DNA from: a virus
Direction: 5' to 3' (one strand)
Virus record (IMG/VR): IMGVR_UViG_3300044623_000353
Location: 1 to 21,025 of that record
Length of the DNA stretch: 21,025 bases
The position numbers and the translations under genes were made by a program. The notes under the pieces were generated by a model that was given only the letters and a program-made list of their open reading frames with translations, had not been told where the DNA came from and did not search any database. Positions 655 to 17,971 of the stretch are shown here, one piece after another (position 1 is the first letter of the stretch; each line of letters starts with the position of its first letter).

Positions 655-1198
655 GGAAAAAATGGAAAATAGAAATTACTCAGTAAATTTAGAGCTTCGC
701 GCCAATGGAGATGGCCGCACTATTTTTGGTATTGCCGTGCCTTACAATAAAGAACAGCGAATCACCAGCACAATGATTGAAGTATTTAGAAAAGGCGTGT
801 TTGCAGAAGTTATTAAAGCACCGCACCGGGTCAAACTTCTCAGGGGTCATGGTGAAAACAATGTGTTAGGCCGTGCCACATTACTTAGGGAAACTGAAGA
901 AGGCCTATATGCTGAATTTAAAATTTCAAAAACGCGTGAAGGTGATGAAGCGTTAGAGTTAGTCAAAGATGGCGCGTTAGATCAATTATCAGTTGGATTT
1001 ATGCCGATCAAGAATAAAAAACGGCCTGATGGGGTTATGGAAAGAATCAAAGCACATTTGGCAGAAGTATCACTTGTAACCTTTGGTGCTTATGGCGAAC
1101 TGGCCAGCATTACAGGTATGCGTGATGGCCAACCACAAATGACACCTAGACTAGATGAAGCAAGGAAGATATTAGATGCCATACAGCGTAGTAAGTAA
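647..1198 (+). CDS. Prohead (capsid maturation) protease, HK97 family
   Basis: Serine protease of the HK97/herpesvirus-assemblin type, which trims the capsid protein's N-terminal delta domain and other head proteins inside the prohead. Visible signatures are RGHGENNVLGRA, with the candidate catalytic His, then the conserved stretch running from GLYAEFKISKT to LDQLSVGF, whose Ser is the candidate nucleophile. It is about 183 residues, typical of the family. The start is uncertain: ATG codons lie at 638, 647 and 662. I prefer 647 because AGAGGA lies about 8 bases upstream; 662 also has a GAGG at suitable spacing, while 638 is too close to its GAGG. It overlaps the portal stop by 8 bases and is itself overlapped at its 3' end by the next gene. 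Position between portal and major capsid protein supports the call. Confidence 0.9.
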   Translation: MSEEKMENRNYSVNLELRANGDGRTIFGIAVPYNKEQRITSTMIEVFRKGVFAEVIKAPHRVKLLRGHGENNVLGRATLLRETEEGLYAEFKISKTREGDEALELVKDGALDQLSVGFMPIKNKKRPDGVMERIKAHLAEVSLVTFGAYGELASITGMRDGQPQMTPRLDEARKILDAIQRSK

Positions 1199-1706
1199 CC
1201 ACCCTGATTGTGAAGGGTATGCAGTTGTAAAAACTGATACCAATGAGCTAATGGGTTGCCACAAAACGCAATCTCAGGCAGAAGATCAAATGACCGCTAT
1301 TAACATTTCAGAGTATGGTGAGAATCGTGCCGAAGGTTATGCACCTACTGATGCAATGAAGACAGAAGCACAAAGAGGATTAGATTGGCGTAGTGAATTT
1401 GGTCGCGGTGGTACAGAGATAGGAATTGCCAGGGCTAGAGATATTGTCAATGGTAAAAATTTACCTTTGGAAACTGTTAATCGTATGGTGTCATTTTTTG
1501 CTAGGCATGAAGTAGATAAAAAGGCAGAAGGCTTTAGCCCAGGCGAAGATGGCTATCCTTCTAATGGTCGCATTGCCTGGGCTTTATGGGGTGGAGATGC
1601 CGGCAAGTCATGGTCAGAAAAGATTGCTAACCAAAATCGTACTGAAGAAAAAACAAGATTTAACACTGCCCTACAAATACTAAAAGATTTAAAAAAAGAG
1701 ATATAA
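1176..1706 (+). CDS. Accessory head-associated protein, overlapping the protease
   Basis: A 176-residue protein of unknown biochemical role. Two segments are visible. Residues 1-45 hold a short motif with NHPDCEGYAVVK and GCHKTQSQAEDQM, often met near actinophage head proteins. Residues 65-150 hold a Trp/Gly-rich block (GLDWRSEFGRGGTEIG, then FFARHEVDKKAEGFSPG and RIAWALWGGDAGKSW). From memory this second block recurs next to, or fused to, protease or portal proteins of environmental phages. The gene begins inside the end of the protease gene in the +1 frame (23-base overlap). It has its own good ribosome site, AAGGAAG at 1162-1168, seven bases before the ATG, which favours separate translation over frameshift fusion. 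A role in head assembly is inference from position. Confidence 0.75.
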   Translation: MPYSVVSNHPDCEGYAVVKTDTNELMGCHKTQSQAEDQMTAINISEYGENRAEGYAPTDAMKTEAQRGLDWRSEFGRGGTEIGIARARDIVNGKNLPLETVNRMVSFFARHEVDKKAEGFSPGEDGYPSNGRIAWALWGGDAGKSWSEKIANQNRTEEKTRFNTALQILKDLKKEI

Positions 1707-1788: not shown

Positions 1789-3147
1789 ATGTCTAATACT
1801 TTTCTAACTTCTCTTCGTGAGAAGCGCGAATCAAAGACATCTCTAATTCAGGCAACTTTAGATCGTGCGGCAGAAGAAGCACGCGATCTATCCGAAGTTG
1901 AGTTGGCTAATGTAGAAGCCCTTAACCTAGAGATTAAAAAGTTGGATGAGCGAATTGAGCAGATGTCCGATATTGAAATACGCAATCAAAAAGCCGCTGA
2001 TCTAGCCGCTAAAGTTGATGCAAACATTGAGCCAAAGAAAGAGGCACGCGCCGGTGGCTTTATTGTTACCAGTGAGGCACTTACTTACTCAGAGAGATCA
2101 AACAATGATTTCTTAACTGATGCACTAAAAGCACAATTTAAAACAGATGGTGAAGCTAGTGCGCGCATTGCACGCCACCAACAGGAAATGGCAATTGAGA
2201 AGCGTGCAGTTGGTACATCCAATTTTGCAGGCTTAGTAGTGCCACAATACCTAGTTGATCTGTATGCACCATTAGCACGCGCAGGCCGCCCATTTGCGGA
2301 TGCCGCACGCAAGCATCAATTACCAACACAGGGTATGTCAGTAGTTATCTCTAAGATAAATACCGGCACAACTACTGCATATCAAACATCACAAAACACA
2401 GCCGCAGTATCACAAGATATTGAGGATACAACTCTAACTGTAAATGTAAACACAATTGCAGGCCAACAATCAGTATCTAAGCAAGCATTGCTACGCGGAT
2501 ACAACATTGAGGGAATTGTTTTAGGTGATTTGATTCGTGATTACCACACTAAGTTGGATAACTCACTTCTAAATGGTACAGGGTCAAATGGTCAACCATT
2601 AGGACTTGTAAACATGACAACTGGAGTTCTAGTAACTTACACCGCTACAACCGGTACAGTTGCAGGTTTGTATCCAAAGATTGCAGATGCAATTCAACAG
2701 ATTCAAAGCAATATCTATGTAAATCCAAATGCAGTAATCATGCACCCACGCCGTCTAGGATTTCTATTAGCCGGTGTTGATAGTTCAAATAGGCCGTTGA
2801 TTGTGCCGCAGGCATACAACCCTATGAACGCAATGGGTACAGGTAACGGCACACCTACTTACGGTAACTCAGGTTATTCAATTCTAGGATTGCCAATTAT
2901 TGTGGATGCTAACATTGCAACCAATAAGGGTACAAGCACAAATCAAGACACAATCTTTGTGGTTGATTTGAATGAAACCCATCTATGGGAAGAAGCCGCC
3001 GCACCAACTTATGTTACATTTGAAGAACCAAATGGCAAGGTTGCAATTAATATCGTTCTATTCGGTATGTCAGCATTTACCGCAGAGCGTTATTCAAAGG
3101 CTGTTGCACAAATTAACGGTACAGGTTTAGCAACACCAAGTTTCTAA
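1789..3147 (+). CDS. Major capsid protein, HK97 fold
   Basis: The main shell protein, 452 residues. Residues 1-75 form a charged, heptad-like helical segment that fits the delta (internal scaffold) domain removed by the protease. The shell domain follows, roughly from residue 90 or later, with family-typical segments such as GLVVPQYLVDLYAPLARAGR, the central VSKQALLRGYN region and a late ILGLPIIVDANI stretch. The start is clear: AGGAGA lies 6 bases upstream of ATG 1789. No scaffold gene is seen, as expected when scaffold and shell are fused. The upstream gap (1707-1788) holds only a possible 18-codon TTG mini-ORF. A strong hairpin follows the stop and may separate or stabilise this very abundant message. 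The cleavage site cannot be fixed from sequence alone. Confidence 0.95.
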   Translation: MSNTFLTSLREKRESKTSLIQATLDRAAEEARDLSEVELANVEALNLEIKKLDERIEQMSDIEIRNQKAADLAAKVDANIEPKKEARAGGFIVTSEALTYSERSNNDFLTDALKAQFKTDGEASARIARHQQEMAIEKRAVGTSNFAGLVVPQYLVDLYAPLARAGRPFADAARKHQLPTQGMSVVISKINTGTTTAYQTSQNTAAVSQDIEDTTLTVNVNTIAGQQSVSKQALLRGYNIEGIVLGDLIRDYHTKLDNSLLNGTGSNGQPLGLVNMTTGVLVTYTATTGTVAGLYPKIADAIQQIQSNIYVNPNAVIMHPRRLGFLLAGVDSSNRPLIVPQAYNPMNAMGTGNGTPTYGNSGYSILGLPIIVDANIATNKGTSTNQDTIFVVDLNETHLWEEAAAPTYVTFEEPNGKVAINIVLFGMSAFTAERYSKAVAQINGTGLATPSF

Positions 3148-4310: not shown

Positions 4311-4718
4311 ATGGCCATATTTATGGGTAACAAAGTTGCCGTGATTGTTGGTACAACTACCATTACTGATCATGTCAGCACTGTAAGCCTAGCACGCGAA
4401 ATTGATCAAGTAGAGATCACCGCAATGAATGACAATGTACAAAACATGATTGGTGGGATTGAACGCCCAACGCTTAATCTTGAACTGTACAATGATTTTG
4501 CATCAGCATCAGTGAACGCACTATTTGAAGATGCGCTAGGTACTAAACTGAATATCAAATTGATACCAGTATCAGGTACAGTAACCGCAACAAACCCAAG
4601 TTATACAATGTCATGCCTTATCTCATCATGGACACCTGTAAATGGTGCTGTTGATGCGGTAGCAAGCGTATCTGTATCACTGCCGGTAACTGCATTAACA
4701 AAATCAACAAGCGCGTAA
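4311..4718 (+). CDS. Major tail (tube) protein
   Basis: A 135-residue beta-rich protein that fits a compact siphovirus tail-tube subunit. It opens with MAIFMGNKVAVIVGTTTITD, alternates short strands, and contains ITAMNDNVQNMIGGIERPTLNLELYNDF, a pattern recalling the tube fold used by lambda gpV-like proteins. A near-consensus AAGGAAA ribosome site lies 5-6 bases before the ATG, as expected for an abundant structural protein. It sits directly upstream of the frameshifted tail assembly chaperone pair and the tape measure, which is the conserved position of the major tail protein. Its short length suggests a single domain without an added Ig-like domain. Confidence 0.85.
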   Translation: MAIFMGNKVAVIVGTTTITDHVSTVSLAREIDQVEITAMNDNVQNMIGGIERPTLNLELYNDFASASVNALFEDALGTKLNIKLIPVSGTVTATNPSYTMSCLISSWTPVNGAVDAVASVSVSLPVTALTKSTSA

Positions 4719-4736: not shown

Positions 4737-4994
4737 ATGCACAAGATTGAAATTGTTAAAAAAGATGGTAAAAAAGTAACCTATGATCTTACGCCATCCG
4801 CAAAGGTGGCGTTTGAAGCTGAATTTAAAACTGGCTGGCGTAAGAGATTAGGCGAACTACAAATGGAGTCGGATTTGTGGTGGTTTGCCTGGCGTTTAGA
4901 AAAAGATGCTGGCAAAACTGATTTAGCCTTTGGTGATGATTACATCAATCAATATTTAGATATTGATTTGGTTTATGATTCAAAAAATGGATAG
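4737..4994 (+). CDS. Tail assembly chaperone, short form (G-like)
   Basis: The 85-residue zero-frame product of the tail assembly chaperone locus. In siphoviruses this protein and its frameshifted extension coat the tape measure and recruit tube subunits, and they are absent from the finished virion. The start has a strong purine-rich site, AAGGGTGGG, just upstream of ATG 4737. The protein is charged and mainly helical, with a Trp-rich middle (DLWWFAWRLEKDAG). The last codons contain the slippery heptamer at 4982-4988 and the frame stops at TAG 4992-4994, directly after it. Position between major tail protein and tape measure is diagnostic. Confidence 0.85.
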   Translation: MHKIEIVKKDGKKVTYDLTPSAKVAFEAEFKTGWRKRLGELQMESDLWWFAWRLEKDAGKTDLAFGDDYINQYLDIDLVYDSKNG

Positions 4995-5155
4995 ACCGCC
5001 ACGGCCAAATTTATGAAATCGCATCTGTGGCGGTTAGTACCGGGATCAGCCCTAAAGATTTATTAGAAGTTGATCCAGCGATTTATTCAGCCATTAAAGC
5101 TATCTTGCAAGAACGCCATTATCAAAACAAAAAGGCAACAGTTAGGCGAAAGTAA
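4737..5155 (+). CDS. Tail assembly chaperone, -1 frameshift fusion (G-T-like)
   Basis: The long form made when ribosomes slip -1 on A AAA AAT (4982-4988). The first 84 residues come from the zero frame. Reading then continues at 4988 in the -1 frame as WIDRHGQIYEIASVAVSTGI and on to TAA at 5153-5155, giving 139 residues. The extension has no stop and no plausible independent start, and it looks like the T-domain seen after chaperone frameshifts in many siphoviruses. An 8-bp hairpin begins 6 bases after the heptamer. The stop overlaps the next ATG (TAATG). The fused product is inferred from sequence; the frequency of slippage cannot be read here. Confidence 0.85.
4982..5034 (+). promoter_or_regulatory. 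Programmed -1 frameshift element (slippery heptamer plus stem-loop)
   Basis: The heptamer AAAAAAT at 4982-4988 is in the required phase, A AAA AAT, relative to the upstream ORF. After a 6-base spacer, ACCGCCAC (4995-5002) pairs perfectly with GTGGCGGT (5027-5034), with a possible extra G-U pair outside and a 24-base loop. Heptamer, spacer length and stem match the known architecture of tail chaperone frameshift sites. Confidence 0.9.
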
Positions 5156-5829
5156 TGATTGAACCTAGATACTCAGGATTGCCTGGCCGTACTAGATCAT
5201 TGGCGGCAGTGCCATCAATCTATGTTGAAAATTTAACTGAACTTCTTGCAAAAATGAAAAAGGTTGATCCTGATTTACAAAAAGAATTTAGAAGGGAATT
5301 AAGTAAGGCTGTTAAGCCAGTTGCAAAATTAGCTCAAAGTTTTGTGCCACACTCACCATTCCCAGGATGGCGTGATGTTGAGCCTAATTATCCACCACAA
5401 TGGGGTTGGGCTAATGATGAAGCACATAGGGGTAGAACAATTGGCCAGGATAAAAGAAGCCGTTGGAAGTGGTCGCAAACAGAAGTTATACGCGGCATAA
5501 GAGTTAGTACAGCTAAAAGTAAAGTACAAAGAATTAAAGGCGTTACATTTGGTGTAACTGCATTAGCGATAGTAAATAAATCTGTACCAGGTATAATTTA
5601 TGAATTGGCAGGTTTTGGATCATCAAAATCAAGGGGAAGAACTAGGCGCGTAAGCCGTAACCCAAATGCTAGTGAATCGTTTATTGGTAAATTGCAAGGT
5701 ACTGCCAATAGTGGTGCTTACAAAGAAAAAAGATTGATTTATAGGGCATCACAACAATTAGGTGGCCAAGTAAATGATAATCTATACGGAGTATTAAAAA
5801 AATATCTAGGCAAAGAATTTAGGGGTTAA
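5155..5829 (+). CDS. HK97 gp10-like tail/neck protein
   Basis: A 224-residue basic protein. Residues 22-65 (ENLTELLAKMKKVDPDLQKEFRRELSKAVKPVAKLAQSFVPHSP) show the pattern of HK97 gp10-like proteins, where an N-terminal helix is followed by K/R-rich segments and a 'P.SP..G' turn. HK97 gp10 relatives act in tail completion or head-tail joining. Here an aromatic insert (PPQWGWANDEAHRG) and a basic C-terminal half are visible. It starts in a TAATG overlap with the frameshifted chaperone. The position between chaperone and tape measure is not where gp10-like proteins usually sit (normally before the major tail protein), so the functional assignment is tentative. Confidence 0.55.
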   Translation: MIEPRYSGLPGRTRSLAAVPSIYVENLTELLAKMKKVDPDLQKEFRRELSKAVKPVAKLAQSFVPHSPFPGWRDVEPNYPPQWGWANDEAHRGRTIGQDKRSRWKWSQTEVIRGIRVSTAKSKVQRIKGVTFGVTALAIVNKSVPGIIYELAGFGSSKSRGRTRRVSRNPNASESFIGKLQGTANSGAYKEKRLIYRASQQLGGQVNDNLYGVLKKYLGKEFRG

Positions 5830-5831
5830 TC

Positions 5832-7706
5832 ATGGCACTAAGTCAATATGTTGCGATTAACTTCTTAACCAAGTTTGATAAAAAAGGCTTAGAGCGTGCT
5901 ACTAAAGAGTTAAAGGGTTTTGACAAGGTAGTTGCCACCGGTTCATTTAGATTAAGAGCCTTTGCCAAAGCCGGTGGGATTGCCGCCGCCGCTGGCCTTG
6001 CTTTATTTACTAAGCGATCAATTGAAGCGGCGTTAGCTCAGGAAAGATTAGATAAACAATTACAGCTATCATTAAGAAGCCTTGATGAAGAGTTTAGATT
6101 TCCCGAAGTAAAAGGGTTTTTAGATAGTTTAGAACGCGCAACAAATATTACTGGCGAACAGTTAGTACCTGCATTTAGAAAATTAGTAAGCCAAACAGGA
6201 GATTTACAATCAGCGCAATTTTTATTAAGCACGGCTTTAGATACATCAGCCGCGACAGGTGCGGATTTAAATAGTGTTTTAGATGCTATAAATAAAGCGG
6301 CAGTTGGTAATTACAAATCAATAGTATCCCTGGGTATTGGGTTCACCACCGCCGAAGCAAAGGCCGCTGGATTTACTAAGATTATTCAAAGCCTTGATAA
6401 GTACCAGGGTGCGGCAGAAAAACAAACTGAAACATTTTCAGGTCAATTAAAATCTTTTCAAATAAGCGCAGGCAAAGCCACCGAAACTTTGGGTTTAGGA
6501 TTTTTAACTGCCGGCGCATACATAACCGGCGCACAAGGTAAATTAGATGTTTTTGGTGCAACCCTTGAAACTACTGCCACACAATTTTCAGATATTTTAG
6601 TTGGATCAGCAAAATCATTTGGCGATAAAGGTTTAGGTGGTTATTTAGATTTAGCGTTAGTCGCACTAGAAGGTTTAGTTGGCGAATCAGTAACCCTACA
6701 AAGATTAGAAAAAGAAGGCATTAAAGTAAGAGAACAGCGCATATTGCAAGAACGCGGTTATTTAGGTTTATCACAATTAACAATTGATGCGTTAGAAAAG
6801 CAAAGATTATATGGCAAAAAAGAATTAACCACAGAACAAATTTTAGCAAAAATACAAAAAGATATTTTGGCTAAAGAAAAAGCCATGACTAAAGAAAAAC
6901 GCGCCCAACAGGAATTAGATAAAAAGAAGGCTGAGTTGTCGGCCATGTTTGATCTTGACCGGATTAACCTACAAGCGGCACTGAGCCGTAAATTAAATGG
7001 TGAAGATGAGTTGCGTGTAAAGATATTACAGAAGTTGGCAGATGGCACAAAGGCCGCCGTTGATGAAGCACAACGCTATGCAGATGTATTAAAGGTTATT
7101 GAAGATGGAAAAATCACTACTGATGAAATTGAAATGTTGGCTCAAAAATGGGGTATAAGTACTAAAGAAGTTGAATTATATTTGACTAAACTTTTTGCCG
7201 CTAATGAAGAGTTACGTAAAATGTTGGCATTGTTGGATGAAATAAATAAAAAGAAAATAAGCCAGGGCATACAACAGGTACAGGCTACGACAGCCAAAAT
7301 TGATCAATTTGTTTATACAACTGCATTGGAAAGTGTTAGAAATTTAAATACTGATATTTCAGAATTTTTACAAAAAAATCAACCTGCACCAATAACTCAA
7401 CAATCAGCATTAACGGATGTTAGAGCAACCAATACTAATATTGCTAGTTTTCTATCTCAATTTACAAGTGTGCCAAAATTGGCAGAAGGTGGAATCGTTA
7501 GCCAACCTACTTTAGCAATAATTGGTGAAGCCGGTTCAGAAGCGGTTGTGCCATTAGATCGCATGGGTAGCATGGGAACTACTGTAAATATCAATGTAGC
7601 CGGCTCAGTTATATCAGAAGGTGAATTGCAATCTGTAATTCAAGATGCTTTGTATAACTTAAACCGATCAGGTGCAGTAACTCAATTAACTAATTTAGGA
7701 AGATAA
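5832..7706 (+). CDS. Tail tape measure protein
   Basis: A 624-residue protein that sets tail length and is probably ejected into the cell envelope with the DNA. It is the longest gene of the window. It shows an N-terminal helical region with a hydrophobic Ala/Gly stretch at about residues 46-60 (AGGIAAAAGLALF), long charged helices at about 330-480 with few breaks, and the family-typical C-terminal GEAGSEAVVPLDRMG segment. By the usual ~0.15 nm per residue rule, the tail would be about 90-95 nm; this is an estimate. AGGGG lies upstream of ATG 5832. No lysozyme or peptidase domain is evident inside it, so wall penetration during entry may rely on other proteins. It overlaps the next gene by one base (TAATG). 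Confidence 0.92.
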   Translation: MALSQYVAINFLTKFDKKGLERATKELKGFDKVVATGSFRLRAFAKAGGIAAAAGLALFTKRSIEAALAQERLDKQLQLSLRSLDEEFRFPEVKGFLDSLERATNITGEQLVPAFRKLVSQTGDLQSAQFLLSTALDTSAATGADLNSVLDAINKAAVGNYKSIVSLGIGFTTAEAKAAGFTKIIQSLDKYQGAAEKQTETFSGQLKSFQISAGKATETLGLGFLTAGAYITGAQGKLDVFGATLETTATQFSDILVGSAKSFGDKGLGGYLDLALVALEGLVGESVTLQRLEKEGIKVREQRILQERGYLGLSQLTIDALEKQRLYGKKELTTEQILAKIQKDILAKEKAMTKEKRAQQELDKKKAELSAMFDLDRINLQAALSRKLNGEDELRVKILQKLADGTKAAVDEAQRYADVLKVIEDGKITTDEIEMLAQKWGISTKEVELYLTKLFAANEELRKMLALLDEINKKKISQGIQQVQATTAKIDQFVYTTALESVRNLNTDISEFLQKNQPAPITQQSALTDVRATNTNIASFLSQFTSVPKLAEGGIVSQPTLAIIGEAGSEAVVPLDRMGSMGTTVNINVAGSVISEGELQSVIQDALYNLNRSGAVTQLTNLGR

Positions 7707-10935: not shown

Positions 10936-11619
10936 ATGGCCATGAAGATGTGCGTGGTTGTACCCAGTAGGGGCAGGCCTGAAAATGCGGATCGGCTGGC
11001 CAAAGCCTTTATAGATACTAATACAGAAGCCGATCTTTATTTTATTGTAGATAATGATGATCCGCGTTGGGTGGAATATACAAACCATAACCGATACAAA
11101 GTTTTACCAGCGGATAATAAAACAGGTGGTTGTGCCGCTTCTCTTAATACCGGTGCGGTTTATCTGTTGGATATTACTAAGTTTCCTTTTTATGATTATT
11201 TTGTTTTCATGGGTGATGATCACTTACCTAGAACCGAAGGCTGGGATAAAGCCTTTATGGAAGCGTTAGCGCATAACACCGGTATTGTTTATGGTGATGA
11301 TCTATTGCAAGGTGCTAACCTGCCAACAGCCTTTGGCATGAGCCGGGATTTAGTTAATGAGCTACGCGGTATGACATTCCCAGGTTGCATACATTTATTC
11401 TTTGATAACTTTGTAAAGCAATTAGGATTAGATTTAAATTACTTAAAGTTTTTACCTGATGTAATTATTGAACACCTACACCCAGTAGCAGGCAAGGCTG
11501 AGATGGATGAAGGGTATGCCAGGGTTAATCAACCTAAGTGGTATGAACAGGATTTACTTATACTGCAAAGATACTTAGCAAGCGCGGAGTATGCAGAGTT
11601 GGTTAGAAAATATAGATGA
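10936..11619 (+). CDS. GT-A type glycosyltransferase (family 2-like)
   Basis: A 227-residue predicted glycosyltransferase. The N-terminus MKMCVVVPSRGRPENADRL is a nucleotide-sugar-binding start of the GT-A fold, FIVDNDDP follows at residues 36-43, and FMGDDHLPRT around 91-100 supplies the metal-binding DD/DXD-like site. The C-terminal part contains VIIEHLHPVAGKAEMDEGY with a His that often completes the site. The start could be 10936 or 10942 (two in-frame ATGs) and no clear ribosome site is visible. It overlaps the SDR epimerase gene by ATGA, so the two are probably co-translated and act in one sugar pathway. Acceptor (virion protein, host wall glycan or DNA) is unknown. Confidence 0.75.
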   Translation: MAMKMCVVVPSRGRPENADRLAKAFIDTNTEADLYFIVDNDDPRWVEYTNHNRYKVLPADNKTGGCAASLNTGAVYLLDITKFPFYDYFVFMGDDHLPRTEGWDKAFMEALAHNTGIVYGDDLLQGANLPTAFGMSRDLVNELRGMTFPGCIHLFFDNFVKQLGLDLNYLKFLPDVIIEHLHPVAGKAEMDEGYARVNQPKWYEQDLLILQRYLASAEYAELVRKYR

Positions 11620-12494
11620 ACATACTCATTACCGGTTCACATGGCTTTGTAGGCCGTGCCTTTAGGCGTGCGCTACCTTATGCCAATTTAACCTTAGTTG
11701 ATTTAAAGCAAGGTGTTGATTGCCGTAAATTCTTTCAGCTAGAAAAAAAACAATATGATCTAGTAATACATTTAGCCGCATTAGTTGGTGGCCGGATGGT
11801 TATAGAAAATGAACCATTATCACTAGCTGTTGATCTTGCCATTGATGCTGAGTTTGCTACCTGGGCTATGCGAACCGAACAGCCTTATGTTGTGTACTTC
11901 TCATCATCTGCCGCTTATCCAATAGAGCTACAAACCCTGGCAAAGAAAAAGAAGTTAAAAGAGAAAGATATAAATTTTAACAAAATAGGTAAACCGGATA
12001 TGACCTATGGCTGGACAAAACTAACCGGTGAAATGCTTATGAATTATTTGCGTGAAGAAGGTACAAAGGTATTAACCCTTAGACCATTTAGCGGTTATGG
12101 CACTGATCAAGACTTAGATTACCCTTTCCCATCAATTATTCAGCGTGCCATAATGAACTCAAATCCATTTAACATTTGGGGCAAGGCAACTACTACCAGG
12201 GATTTTATTCACATTGATGATGTGGTAGATGCAACAATTGAGATGGTTAAAAATGAGTGTAATCAAACAGTTAATTTATGTACCGGAAGGCCTACCACCT
12301 TTTTAGAGTTAGCAAAAATAGCAATGAGTACCCTGGGATATGAAAAGACATCTGCCAATAGATTCAAAATATTGACCGATAAGCCGGCAGGTGTGGCTTA
12401 TCGCGTAGGTGATCCAACAATGATGAGCGATTACTACACGCCAAAAATAACCCTGGAAGAAGGCGTTGAGCGTGCCATTCGCGGATTAGTATGA
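11616..12494 (+). CDS. Extended SDR nucleotide-sugar epimerase/dehydratase
   Basis: A 292-residue NAD(P)-dependent enzyme of the extended short-chain dehydrogenase/reductase group, acting on nucleotide sugars in the cytoplasm. The cofactor motif GSHGFVG (G7, G10, G13), LAALVGG at about 54-59, FSSSAAY at 95-101 and the catalytic Y131-x3-K135 (YGWTK) are all present, as is the late TRDFIHIDDVVDA segment. The order is that of GDP-fucose synthase and UDP-glucose 4-epimerase relatives; the exact substrate cannot be told. Length is close to the family norm and no active-site residue is missing. The 4-base overlap with the glycosyltransferase suggests a donor-making partner. Confidence 0.85.
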   Translation: MNILITGSHGFVGRAFRRALPYANLTLVDLKQGVDCRKFFQLEKKQYDLVIHLAALVGGRMVIENEPLSLAVDLAIDAEFATWAMRTEQPYVVYFSSSAAYPIELQTLAKKKKLKEKDINFNKIGKPDMTYGWTKLTGEMLMNYLREEGTKVLTLRPFSGYGTDQDLDYPFPSIIQRAIMNSNPFNIWGKATTTRDFIHIDDVVDATIEMVKNECNQTVNLCTGRPTTFLELAKIAMSTLGYEKTSANRFKILTDKPAGVAYRVGDPTMMSDYYTPKITLEEGVERAIRGLV

Positions 12495-14001: not shown

Positions 14002-14270
14002 TGAAAATTACAAAGAATCAATTTGAAGCCTTAACTGATGCACAAATGGAATGGGCAACTGAACCGGATTGGCTAAGCCAAAAAGATAGGTTTGAAGATT
14101 CAATTTGTTGGTCACATCTGTTTATTTACTGGGTAGAAAATTATGCTTCTGCAATATTGGCTACTGAGTTTTTAAAGCAAAATAAATATGATTTTAGCAT
14201 CTCTTTTGACAATGCTGTTGGTCAATATTGCTTTACAACCAACTATCGCGGGTCATGGGTTTACGCATGA
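14001..14270 (+). CDS. Hypothetical protein of the replication region
   Basis: An 89-residue acidic, aromatic-rich protein I do not recognise (six Trp, for example DAQMEWATEPDWLSQKD). It has no membrane segment and no obvious motif; a helix is likely over residues 35-60. GAAGGTGA about 8 bases before the ATG gives a good ribosome site. The start overlaps the upstream stop (TAATG) and the end overlaps the prim-pol start (ATGA), so it is very likely a real gene produced with the primase. Function is unknown. Confidence 0.65.
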   Translation: MKITKNQFEALTDAQMEWATEPDWLSQKDRFEDSICWSHLFIYWVENYASAILATEFLKQNKYDFSISFDNAVGQYCFTTNYRGSWVYA

Positions 14271-14752
14271 ACGCCGTAGCCTATGTAGAAAAGGGTTGGT
14301 TTGTACTACCACTTAAACCACAATCTAAAGAGCCATGTAAGTTTTTAAGGCATGGTTACCTTGATGCAAGCAATGATCTAACCACTGTACAAAGATGGTT
14401 TAAAGAAGAAGATCGCAATATTGGGTTGGCTATTGTGCAATCTAACTTAGTGGTTCTTGATTTTGATATACGCAATATAGCTTCAAGAACCCTATGGGAA
14501 GATTATCGCCGGCTATGTGTTAAGTCTAATACCCATACAGTTAAAACAGATAATGGATTTCACTTCTATTATGTAGCTGATAAGGATAAGCAATTTAAAG
14601 GCAAACTAATACCAGGTATAGATATTAAACATAAGGGTTATGTGGTACTACCACCATCAATACATCCAAATGGCAGTACATACCAGGTAATCAATGATGT
14701 TGATCCAGTTGCATTACCGGCTGAACTAGAAAAGGTGATGAGTTGGAATTAG
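14267..14752 (+). CDS. Stand-alone prim-pol (bifunctional primase/polymerase N-terminal) domain
   Basis: A 161-residue protein that is essentially one archaeo-eukaryotic-primase-like prim-pol domain, able in its family to make primers and in some cases extend them. Motifs: GWFVLPLKPQSKEP near the N-terminus, VVLDFDIR with D65 and D67 (metal ligands), DNGFHFYY with H99, and GIDIKHKGYVVLPPSIHPNG (residues 117-136), the hallmark third block. Prim-pol proteins are usually fused to a helicase; no helicase is joined or visible nearby. ATG 14267 forms an ATGA overlap with the previous gene; a longer frame from 14228 lies inside that gene. It is the only replication enzyme recognised in the window. 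Confidence 0.88.
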   Translation: MNAVAYVEKGWFVLPLKPQSKEPCKFLRHGYLDASNDLTTVQRWFKEEDRNIGLAIVQSNLVVLDFDIRNIASRTLWEDYRRLCVKSNTHTVKTDNGFHFYYVADKDKQFKGKLIPGIDIKHKGYVVLPPSIHPNGSTYQVINDVDPVALPAELEKVMSWN

Positions 14753-16721: not shown

Positions 16722-17240
16722 ATGTTGTATCTTTTATCCCAGGGGGCTAAACGAAACTCAGTTATACAGGGTATTCAATTGCCATCTTCTCAGCCAACTC
16801 AGGCATCCAGCCGTGGGGGGGGTTTGGGGGGGGCATCACAAAATCTAGTTACCAGGGTATCCAATAAAAAACTAAAAACAGTTATATTGGTTTTAATAAT
16901 ATTATTGATAAATATTAAACCCGCTTTTGGGTTACCCCACTATAAGCCAAATCATTACAAGCAATATATTTACATTAGTTTGAAATACGATATTGAACAG
17001 ACCTATTGCCTAATTGAGCTATATCACCATGAAAGCCGGTTTAACCCCAAAGCGCGTAACGGTAGTCATTATGGGATTCCACAGGGCAGATCAGAATATT
17101 TAAAAACAGTGGGTGGCATAGAACAAATTGAATGGGGAAAGCGTTATATTGGCCACCGGTATGGCTGGATAGATGAAAAGGCCGGAATACCTGATGCTTG
17201 CAAGGCATTACAACATTGGGCTACGAAGGGATGGCATTGA
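16722..17240 (+). CDS. SLT-type lytic transglycosylase-like protein with membrane/signal segment
   Basis: A 172-residue protein (if started at ATG 16722). The C-terminal half carries an SLT/lysozyme-like core: LIELYHHE104SRFNPKARNGSHYGIPQG, where E104 is the candidate catalytic acid and SRFNPKA...GIPQ matches the 'ES.FNP.A...G..Q' pattern, plus ALQHWATKGW at the end. Residues 50-70 (KKLKTVILVLIILLINIKPAFG) form a signal-peptide or signal-anchor segment, implying export to the wall. Residues 1-49 are low-complexity and include a Gly run coded by two G8 tracts. The start is uncertain: no good ribosome site is seen. It lies away from the M15 endolysin, so it may serve entry or a second lysis route. 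Confidence 0.6.
   Translation: MLYLLSQGAKRNSVIQGIQLPSSQPTQASSRGGGLGGASQNLVTRVSNKKLKTVILVLIILLINIKPAFGLPHYKPNHYKQYIYISLKYDIEQTYCLIELYHHESRFNPKARNGSHYGIPQGRSEYLKTVGGIEQIEWGKRYIGHRYGWIDEKAGIPDACKALQHWATKGWH
16815..16833 (+). repeat. Paired homopolymer G8-TTT-G8
   Basis: Two runs of eight G (16815-16822 and 16826-16833) separated by TTT, inside the N-terminal region of the transglycosylase gene. This is highly unusual in an AT-rich phage. Runs of this length are prone to slippage in replication and sequencing and could form G-quadruplex structure. A change of one base in either run would shift the reading frame. Confidence 0.85.
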
Positions 17241-17971
17241 AAGATACTGAAAAAATTACAATTGGGGTTACATCACCCGGGTTTGTAGTAACAGACTTTA
17301 TGACTAGCATTTTAGATGTGGCTAGATCACAAAAACAGTTAGGGCAGTTTATTAGCCTACAAGGATCAGGTGTTATCAGTAGGTTACGCAATCAGATTGT
17401 TGCAACCTTCTTAGAAAAAACCACAGATGATTGGCTATTACAGATAGATACAGATCAGAGATTTACTGTTGATCACTTTAAGAAGTTAGTAGCCGCGGCA
17501 GATAAGGACAAGCGGCCTATTGTGTCAGGTGTGGTGCATGGTGGTTGGGATGTGGGTGAGCTGTATTTAGAGCCAGTGCCTTGCATCTTTAAGTTAGGTA
17601 CAGATAATGGATTGTATGCAGTACATGATTATGAAGAAGATAGCATCATTGAAGTAGATGCCGCTGGCACAGGTGCAATCATTGTGCATAGGTCAGTGTT
17701 TGAAAGGTTTGTAAAAGAAGCTGATGATACACATCAGGGTAGTAAGTGGTGCTTCTACCAGGATATGCCATTGCATAAAGAGTGGGTGGGTGAAGATTTG
17801 TTGTGGTGCATTAGAGCTAAGAGCTTTGGGTATAAACTATATGCACACACCGGCGTACAGATGGATCATCAGCGCAAGATGTGGATAGGTGCTAAACAGC
17901 ACAAAGACTTTGCACGCTTTAGGCGTGCAAGATTACAGAGTGAGGAACAGATTAATGGCAATAATAAATAG
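17231..17971 (+). CDS. GT-A type glycosyltransferase
   Basis: A 246-residue predicted glycosyltransferase, the second of the window. The N-terminal ITIGVTSPGFVV starts the GT-A fold; WLLQIDTDQRF (D73-x-D75) is the DXD metal-binding motif; PIVSGVVHGGWD lies in the middle; WVGEDLLWCIRAKSFGYKLYAHTGVQMDH carries the candidate ED catalytic pair and a late His, as in GT2-like enzymes. Start is ATG 17231 or TTG 17237; GAAGGG at 17225-17230 is better spaced for the TTG, which would give a TTGA overlap with the upstream stop. It is not similar enough by eye to the 10936 enzyme to be a recent duplicate. The acceptor is unknown. Confidence 0.75.
   Translation: MALKDTEKITIGVTSPGFVVTDFMTSILDVARSQKQLGQFISLQGSGVISRLRNQIVATFLEKTTDDWLLQIDTDQRFTVDHFKKLVAAADKDKRPIVSGVVHGGWDVGELYLEPVPCIFKLGTDNGLYAVHDYEEDSIIEVDAAGTGAIIVHRSVFERFVKEADDTHQGSKWCFYQDMPLHKEWVGEDLLWCIRAKSFGYKLYAHTGVQMDHQRKMWIGAKQHKDFARFRRARLQSEEQINGNNK

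Follow-up and report, generated by a model that had tools for sequence, protein, structure and literature searches.

A predicted -1 frameshift with a conserved downstream hairpin in a lambda G/GT-type gene pair of mostly uncultured phages

The 21,025 nt stretch of viral DNA analysed here (IMG/VR record IMGVR_UViG_3300044623_000353, positions 1 to 21,025; hereafter the window) very probably, at about 92% by our own estimate, has a siphophage tail-assembly-chaperone gene in which a programmed -1 ribosomal frameshift, assisted by a hairpin, produces a fusion of a G-like and a T-like protein. The signal in the sequence, its phase, the coding of the -1 frame and the conservation of both heptamer and stem were observed directly. 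Tail-chaperone frameshifting has long been known from phage lambda, and the frameshift described here is of the lambda G/GT type, a known kind. The phage group carrying this G/T frameshift signal is large and mostly uncultured, and our analysis suggests what an unnamed gene pair found in more than 100 phage contigs may do.

The frameshift signal in the window

A short ORF on the + strand (4737..4994) encodes an 85 aa G-like protein as its zero-frame product, and is represented by a 33-member family alignment (A5) and an AlphaFold2 model. Its final codons, from position 4980, read TCA (4980-4982) AAA AAT GGA TAG. Because the zero frame is read in this way, the slippery heptamer A AAA AAT (4982..4988, + strand), whose first A is the third base of the TCA codon, is phased for -1 tandem slippage. 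The gap between the heptamer and the zero-frame stop TAG (4992..4994, + strand) is 3 nt, and the stop itself lies within the spacer separating heptamer and stem. On the same strand the T-like domain (4988..5155) is read in the -1 frame for 55 codons after the slip, up to a TAA at 5153-5155 that overlaps the ATG at 5155 of the next ORF (TAATG). The slip adds 55 residues to the G-like ORF, for a predicted fused product of 139 aa. A heptamer in correct phase near the stop of the short ORF and a -1 frame open for 55 codons to a TAATG junction had both been claimed from a sequence-only reading of this DNA, and both were borne out.

That reading had also described a perfect 8-bp stem beginning 6 bases downstream of the heptamer. 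The pairing and the spacing were as described: ACCGCCAC (4995-5002) pairs with GTGGCGGT (5027-5034), with a spacer of 6 and a loop of 24. The length had to be revised, since G5003-U5026 and G5004-C5025 extend this core to a helix of 10 bp, with one G-U pair and a loop of 20. The complete 5' arm, ACCGCCACGG (4995..5004, + strand), and 3' arm, CTGTGGCGGT (5025..5034, + strand), are both supported by the fold, the pairing and the alignment, and the 3' arm also by its fourfold degenerate sites. The RNA fold of 4989-5060 has a free energy of -24.3 kcal/mol (z -2.65), equalled or bettered by 4 of 200 shuffles.

In-phase heptamers are not unusual by themselves, with 53 in the 6457 codons of 32 chosen window ORFs, and only at 4982 does the -1 frame run far beyond the ORF stop (161 nt; the runner-up has 59 nt). 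The 21,025 nt also contain 22 start positions of perfect 8-bp stems (loop 3-30), three of which have at least six G/C, the stem at 4995 included. A chance origin of the combination of heptamer, stem and extension is unlikely. It is the relatives that decide the case rather than the odds in a single sequence.

In another ORF of the window (1176-1706) the in-phase heptamers T TTA AAA and A AAA AAA overlap each other at 1688-1697, right before the stop. At this 1688/1691 site the -1 frame is open for 59 nt past the stop and ends in the gap before the capsid gene; these heptamers are probably there by chance.

Heptamer and coding frame in close relatives

Two scans (best 80 of 268 and best 80 of 247 confirmed matches) yielded 156 loci, 93 of which were distinct over the gene pair and which, with the window, made up an alignment of 94 rows. 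From another scan the best 80 of 175 confirmed matches were used. Every one of the 94 rows has its zero-frame stop at codon 86, with a -1 frame that is free of stops until its terminal one. The longest invariant run in this alignment is 19 nt (4980-4998), comprising the heptamer, the stop and the start of the stem, and the second longest is 8 nt. Upstream of the heptamer, the variability per codon position has the pattern of the zero frame (0.21/0.11/0.55 bits), and from there on that of the -1 frame (0.22/0.10/0.57 bits up to the GTG at 5027 and 0.14/0.08/0.56 beyond), in a count that included L099, a locus out of register in its G half. The frame switch coincides with the heptamer and precedes GTG 5027, so T shows the behaviour of a region translated from upstream. 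The coding signature of the T-like domain thus runs from the heptamer onward, and in the relatives and the family alignment the -1 extension is conserved and has a signature of protein-coding selection.

A larger set used 252 of 269 loci and gave, with the window, 112 distinct rows; 110 of these have A AAA AAT and the other two, from a distant lineage, have C CCA AAC. The 17 loci left out were L019, L191, L307 and L313 (short or with N), L099, and 12 distant relatives with no zero-frame stop at the aligned place. L099 was left out since its match spans residues 57-85 only and its G gene is broken upstream; at approximately 2780-3004 it has a G without a stretch past the first codons and with an early stop, while T is intact, which reflects either an assembly error or a defective copy. 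We took the one odd row of the 93 close relatives to be L099.

The downstream hairpin

Conservation of heptamer and stem in related phages had been suggested as a check by the sequence-only reading, and was found for the stem as well, with at least nine of the ten pairs in every one of the 110 A AAA AAT rows (10/10 pairs in 104 and 9/10 in six). The two distant C CCA AAC rows are without the stem and form 5/10 pairs. Over the 38 distinct rows of the stem alignment, 99.2% of 380 cells are paired, compared to 31-52% with one arm slid by 1-3 columns. The covariation score of the stem was reached by none of 500 shuffles of these 38 rows. Three of five stem measures beat every shuffle, and two do not, being reached by 500/500 and 479/500 shuffles.

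Seven of the ten pairs are invariant in the 38 rows, and the covariation rests on one varying pair, which occurs as C-G, G-U, A-U and U-G, plus a single C-U mismatch. Its 5' base falls at the third position of an Arg CGN codon and its 3' base at the first of an Ala/Ser codon. In a tree analysis of this pair, the supported independent comparisons agreed in about 4-5 of 5 cases when taken one way and in 4 of 6 when taken the other, the remaining comparisons showing no difference and none opposing. The corresponding sign test does not reach 0.05, and the nearby columns 5041 and 5023 are nearly as linked (0.93 and 0.88 versus 0.96 for the pair). Covariation of the stem pair on the tree is suggestive, not significant.

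The fourfold degenerate sites of the stem likewise speak for pairing as RNA. Site 5032 is G in 110/110 rows, site 5029 is G in all 107 rows that have a Val codon there, and site 5026 is C or T only, either of which pairs with G. All four bases are seen at site 4999, which is unpaired in only three of the 110 rows. For control, fourfold sites elsewhere in the two genes were counted: in T 1 of 14 is invariant, and in G 4 of 21 are, including the heptamer's own A. Because such sites occur outside the stem too, two invariant sites of four within it is a small number.

In the window's lineage the stable, conserved stem lies 6 nt past the heptamer, within the spacing of 5-8 nt that PMC4066793 states for stimulatory hairpins. 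To characterize other branches, 30 representatives were chosen by similarity from 73 loci, 28 to 30 of them being readable per offset. The 50 nt starting 4 nt past the heptamer have a mean z of -1.23, lower in a paired test than six of seven other segments and indistinguishable from the segment at -110 (mean z -0.99, p 0.44). The exact form of the stem belongs to the window's lineage, and elsewhere the downstream structure is a mild statistical trend.

A wider family found without use of the heptamer

Viral contigs were scanned with the T-domain motif I-S-P-x-[D/E]-L alone; the heptamer was not used, and the motif's serine was coded so as to exclude the window's own sequence. At least 120 contigs matched, and all 120 were examined. 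A T profile built from alignment A6, in which 26 of 30 rows came from loci later scored, split them into 101 contigs with 36 bits or more and 19 with 17.1 bits or less. A geometry filter passed 103 rows, and the removal of L334 and L352 (less than 8 bits with the T profile) left the 101. These contigs are not independent, as the 103 rows contain 63 different T ends. The G half was read in the first 80 of the 120 loci and in L354.

All 101 of the T contigs listed have a zero-frame stop 31-80 nt before the motif, with T in the -1 frame, and so a single-frame fusion occurs in none of them. An in-phase X XXY YYZ heptamer was found within the overlap in 100 of these 101 T-domain contigs among the matches listed, the overlap averaging 12.8 codons in the 103 geometry-passing rows. 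By way of background, the same G ORFs in 73 loci have 6 in-phase heptamers per 5988 upstream codons. The heptamers among the 100 contigs, one of which has two sites, are of at least seven kinds: A AAA AAA (45), C CCT TTA (19), A AAA AAT (15), C CCA AAA (12), C CCA AAC (5), C CCA AAT (2) and G GGA AAA (1). The heptamer thus changes its letters in the course of evolution but retains its class and phase. The overlap also contains off-phase heptamers (45 and 17 of the 103 rows), which we attribute to the runs of A. The exception is L354 (motif at 5918), which has retained the two-frame layout without a standard heptamer; its zero frame ends GAC CCT ACG TAG, which would permit a P-site CCT/CCC slip only.

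Relatives fused in one frame, or a T-domain without a relative in any phage, had been named by the sequence-only reading as findings that would count against a frameshift. None of the 101 contigs is fused in one frame, 100 of them keep a slippery heptamer, and a family of phage T-domains exists.

Protein family and fold searches

Searches of Pfam, PHROGs and PDB sequences, using single proteins as well as families, returned no significant named chaperone. The profile search of the -1 extension that had been proposed as a check likewise recovered no named tail chaperone at significance: Phage_TAC_7 matches 5 of 30 T members weakly (best E 0.015), and phrog_166, a 'tail protein', matches 6 of 30 weakly (best E 0.0096). 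For the G half, phrog_6889 (function unknown) matches 17 of 33 members with a best E of 1.2e-9. Since the profiles gave no named match, the 'tail chaperone' label is based on the position of the genes, their architecture and the family-wide frameshift. Designed dTor repeat proteins were considered as relatives of T (E down to 2.7e-8) and rejected, since the similarity covers 17 residues with no stretch passing alone and was deemed compositional.

The AlphaFold2 model of G has a mean pLDDT of 91.5, and T is predicted as three helices with a mean pLDDT of 90.9. Foldseek comparison of the G model to the PDB found nothing at E 0.001 or better, and the best VIA-align Z of 3.7 excludes nothing. Against BFVD, G has 12 matches with E of 0.001 or less, 11 of them to uncharacterized phage proteins and one nameless, while the best E for T is 6.6e-3. 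A scan of the genome collection with the G protein produced 49 pattern matches and 0 confirmed relatives, and for this reason we name no host. In the phage collection the window's G has only chance-level matches, the G members L270 and L265 have no matches, and phiPsal1 is the sole match of the G member L252.

Gene neighbourhood and named relatives

The structural module of the window is arranged in the order prohead protease, HK97-type capsid protein, head-tail adaptor, tail terminator, major tail protein (4311..4718, + strand; phrog_4574, E 2.7e-13), the G/T ORF, a tail-module ORF and the tape measure protein (5832..7706, + strand; phrog_23574, E 1.1e-5; phrog_15478, E 6e-5), with the large terminase further on. 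The G/T genes are flanked by those for the major tail and tape measure proteins, with one additional ORF intervening (5155..5829, + strand; 224 aa), which is weakly HK97-gp10-like (PF04883, E 0.025, below its cut-off). In lambda, the tape measure gene directly follows the chaperone gene. An ORF is also present in phiPsal1 where the window has 5155-5829.

Two phage-collection records, Pontimonas phage phiPsal1 (MG835450) and EBPR siphovirus 6, were found by tblastn with the T member L308. PhiPsal1 shares the G/T family and the synteny of the window, and its -1 frame gives a T-domain containing ISPRELMELDP. Its gene 016 ends TCA AAA AAA TAA, so that the heptamer, A AAA AAA, abuts the stop, and the downstream sequence is unlike that of the window. 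The phiPsal1 record has two hypothetical proteins there and no frameshift annotated; the -1 T extension (5092-5255, locus L157) is unannotated, and the next CDS is called inside it in another frame. The paper reporting this phage states that it is not taken up further there (PMC6106888). For EBPR siphovirus 6, which likewise has no annotated frameshift, we infer from its two translations that the slip site would be C CCT TTG.

Rhodococcus phages with related major tail proteins have genes annotated as tail assembly chaperone. In one of these, Jflix2, which resembles the window in its related major tail protein, chaperone genes 18/19 form a two-piece joined CDS before the tape measure gene; its short product, however, is 132 aa, and the window's G has no tblastn match to it. 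The window shares with lambda G/GT, as outlined in part of PMC5009743, a short upstream ORF, a -1 extension near its 3' end and a location in the tail module. Unlike lambda's, its proteins match no named chaperone family significantly, and the extra ORF precedes the tape measure gene. In the window a conserved simple hairpin begins 6 nt past the heptamer. The IS911/IS3 cassettes have an X_XX.Z_ZZ.N heptamer and a structure 5-8 nt downstream, according to a passage of PMC4066793, much as in the window, but the genes and products are other ones, and an upstream Shine-Dalgarno-like stimulator was not seen in the window in an unsystematic look.

The mechanism is ordinary, because gpG/gpGT frameshifting is widespread and 2397 joined tail-chaperone genes were counted among 3679 SEA-PHAGES genomes in the PRFect study (excerpt of PMC10885494). 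The pertinent passages of PMC5009743 describe low-level -1 frameshifting as linking gpG and gpGT, and the frameshift as widely conserved in long-tailed phages despite low sequence similarity. The PRFect excerpt adds that the downstream part may need no start codon and that gene callers might miss it (PMC10885494), and phiPsal1 is a case of a public record losing the T half. What may be new here, against an open-access literature, is modest: a widespread G/T family without a significant named tail-chaperone match in Pfam or PHROGs, a frameshift that is unannotated in the two named records found (phiPsal1 and EBPR siphovirus 6), and a conserved downstream hairpin in the window's lineage.

Alternative explanations and proposed mechanism

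T could in principle be a separate small protein that needs no frameshift, its translation starting at GTG 5027 or through translational coupling. No start codon of the open -1 frame comes before this GTG, and some T-frame start codon precedes the motif in 71 of 103 rows, but the remaining 32 have none. Moreover, the -1 coding signature is already present between the heptamer and GTG 5027, a stretch which aligns within T across the family. The GTG lies inside the stem, and the 18 bases before it show no Shine-Dalgarno-like sequence. Such a start would also leave the conservation of the heptamer unexplained, and we regard it as very unlikely. Slippage of RNA polymerase on the A run, rather than of the ribosome, is similarly improbable. 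The runs comprise six A in the window, 7 in phiPsal1 and 8 in L162, and six A is short for transcriptional slippage. Furthermore, in 40 of the 100 members with a heptamer the site is neither A AAA AAA nor A AAA AAT. These other sites (C CCT TTA, C CCA AAC and others) have no long homopolymer and yet keep the phase required by tandem tRNA slippage. Readthrough of the stop in the zero frame would be compatible with its being TAG, but in 94/94 rows the 54-codon stretch of zero frame that begins with the TAG contains 2 to 4 stops (this TAG counted), and the coding signature is in the -1 frame; we consider readthrough extremely improbable.

It might also be that the frameshift is real and the stem is a by-product of coding constraint with no stimulatory role. 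The seven pairs that never vary, the invariant fourfold sites outside the stem (4/21 in G and 1/14 in T) and the mild structure downstream in other branches (z -1.23 versus -0.99 at -110, p 0.44) are consistent with this idea. Against it, fourfold sites 5032, 5029, 5026 and 4999 of the stem hold almost always to pairing bases, and the 6 nt spacer is within the 5-8 nt given for stimulators in PMC4066793 (in part). Taken together, a by-product stem seems to us unlikely.

A hairpin-assisted -1 frameshift is thus the reading that we prefer, and the fused tail chaperone proposed by the sequence-only reading is supported by the heptamers (110/112 in the larger set and 100/101 in the wider family), the coding in the -1 frame and the gene position. 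We infer slippage itself, its rate, stimulation by the stem and the chaperone function. Under this model most ribosomes would terminate at TAG 4992 and release the 85-residue G-like protein, while a smaller share, paused by the hairpin that lies 6 nt further on, would slip on A AAA AAT into the -1 frame and produce the 139-residue G-T fusion. If they act as in lambda, G and GT would coat the tape measure protein, with the T part recruiting the major tail protein. A broader and tentative proposal, which we consider possible rather than probable, is of a large chaperone family in uncultured phages whose G fold differs from those solved so far and whose heptamer letters turn over freely within one class, and in which the covarying 10-bp hairpin of one lineage sets the G:GT ratio. 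The family is also a natural series of at least seven heptamers, some followed by a strong hairpin and others not, in homologous proteins, suited to gauging the balance between slippery sequence and stem.

Other genes of the window

Outside the tail module, a Prim-Pol N-terminal domain (PF09250, E 6e-30) is encoded at 14228-14752 in an ORF of only 174 aa, so that no helicase part shares this ORF. The region 10936-12494 has an NAD-dependent epimerase (PF01370, E 6e-27) beside an ORF without a Pfam match, which we guess to be a glycosyltransferase. At 17198-17971 there is a weak match, below its cut-off, to family-2 glycosyltransferases. From their sequences, these epimerase and glycosyltransferase-like ORFs may function in modification of the virion or of the host surface.
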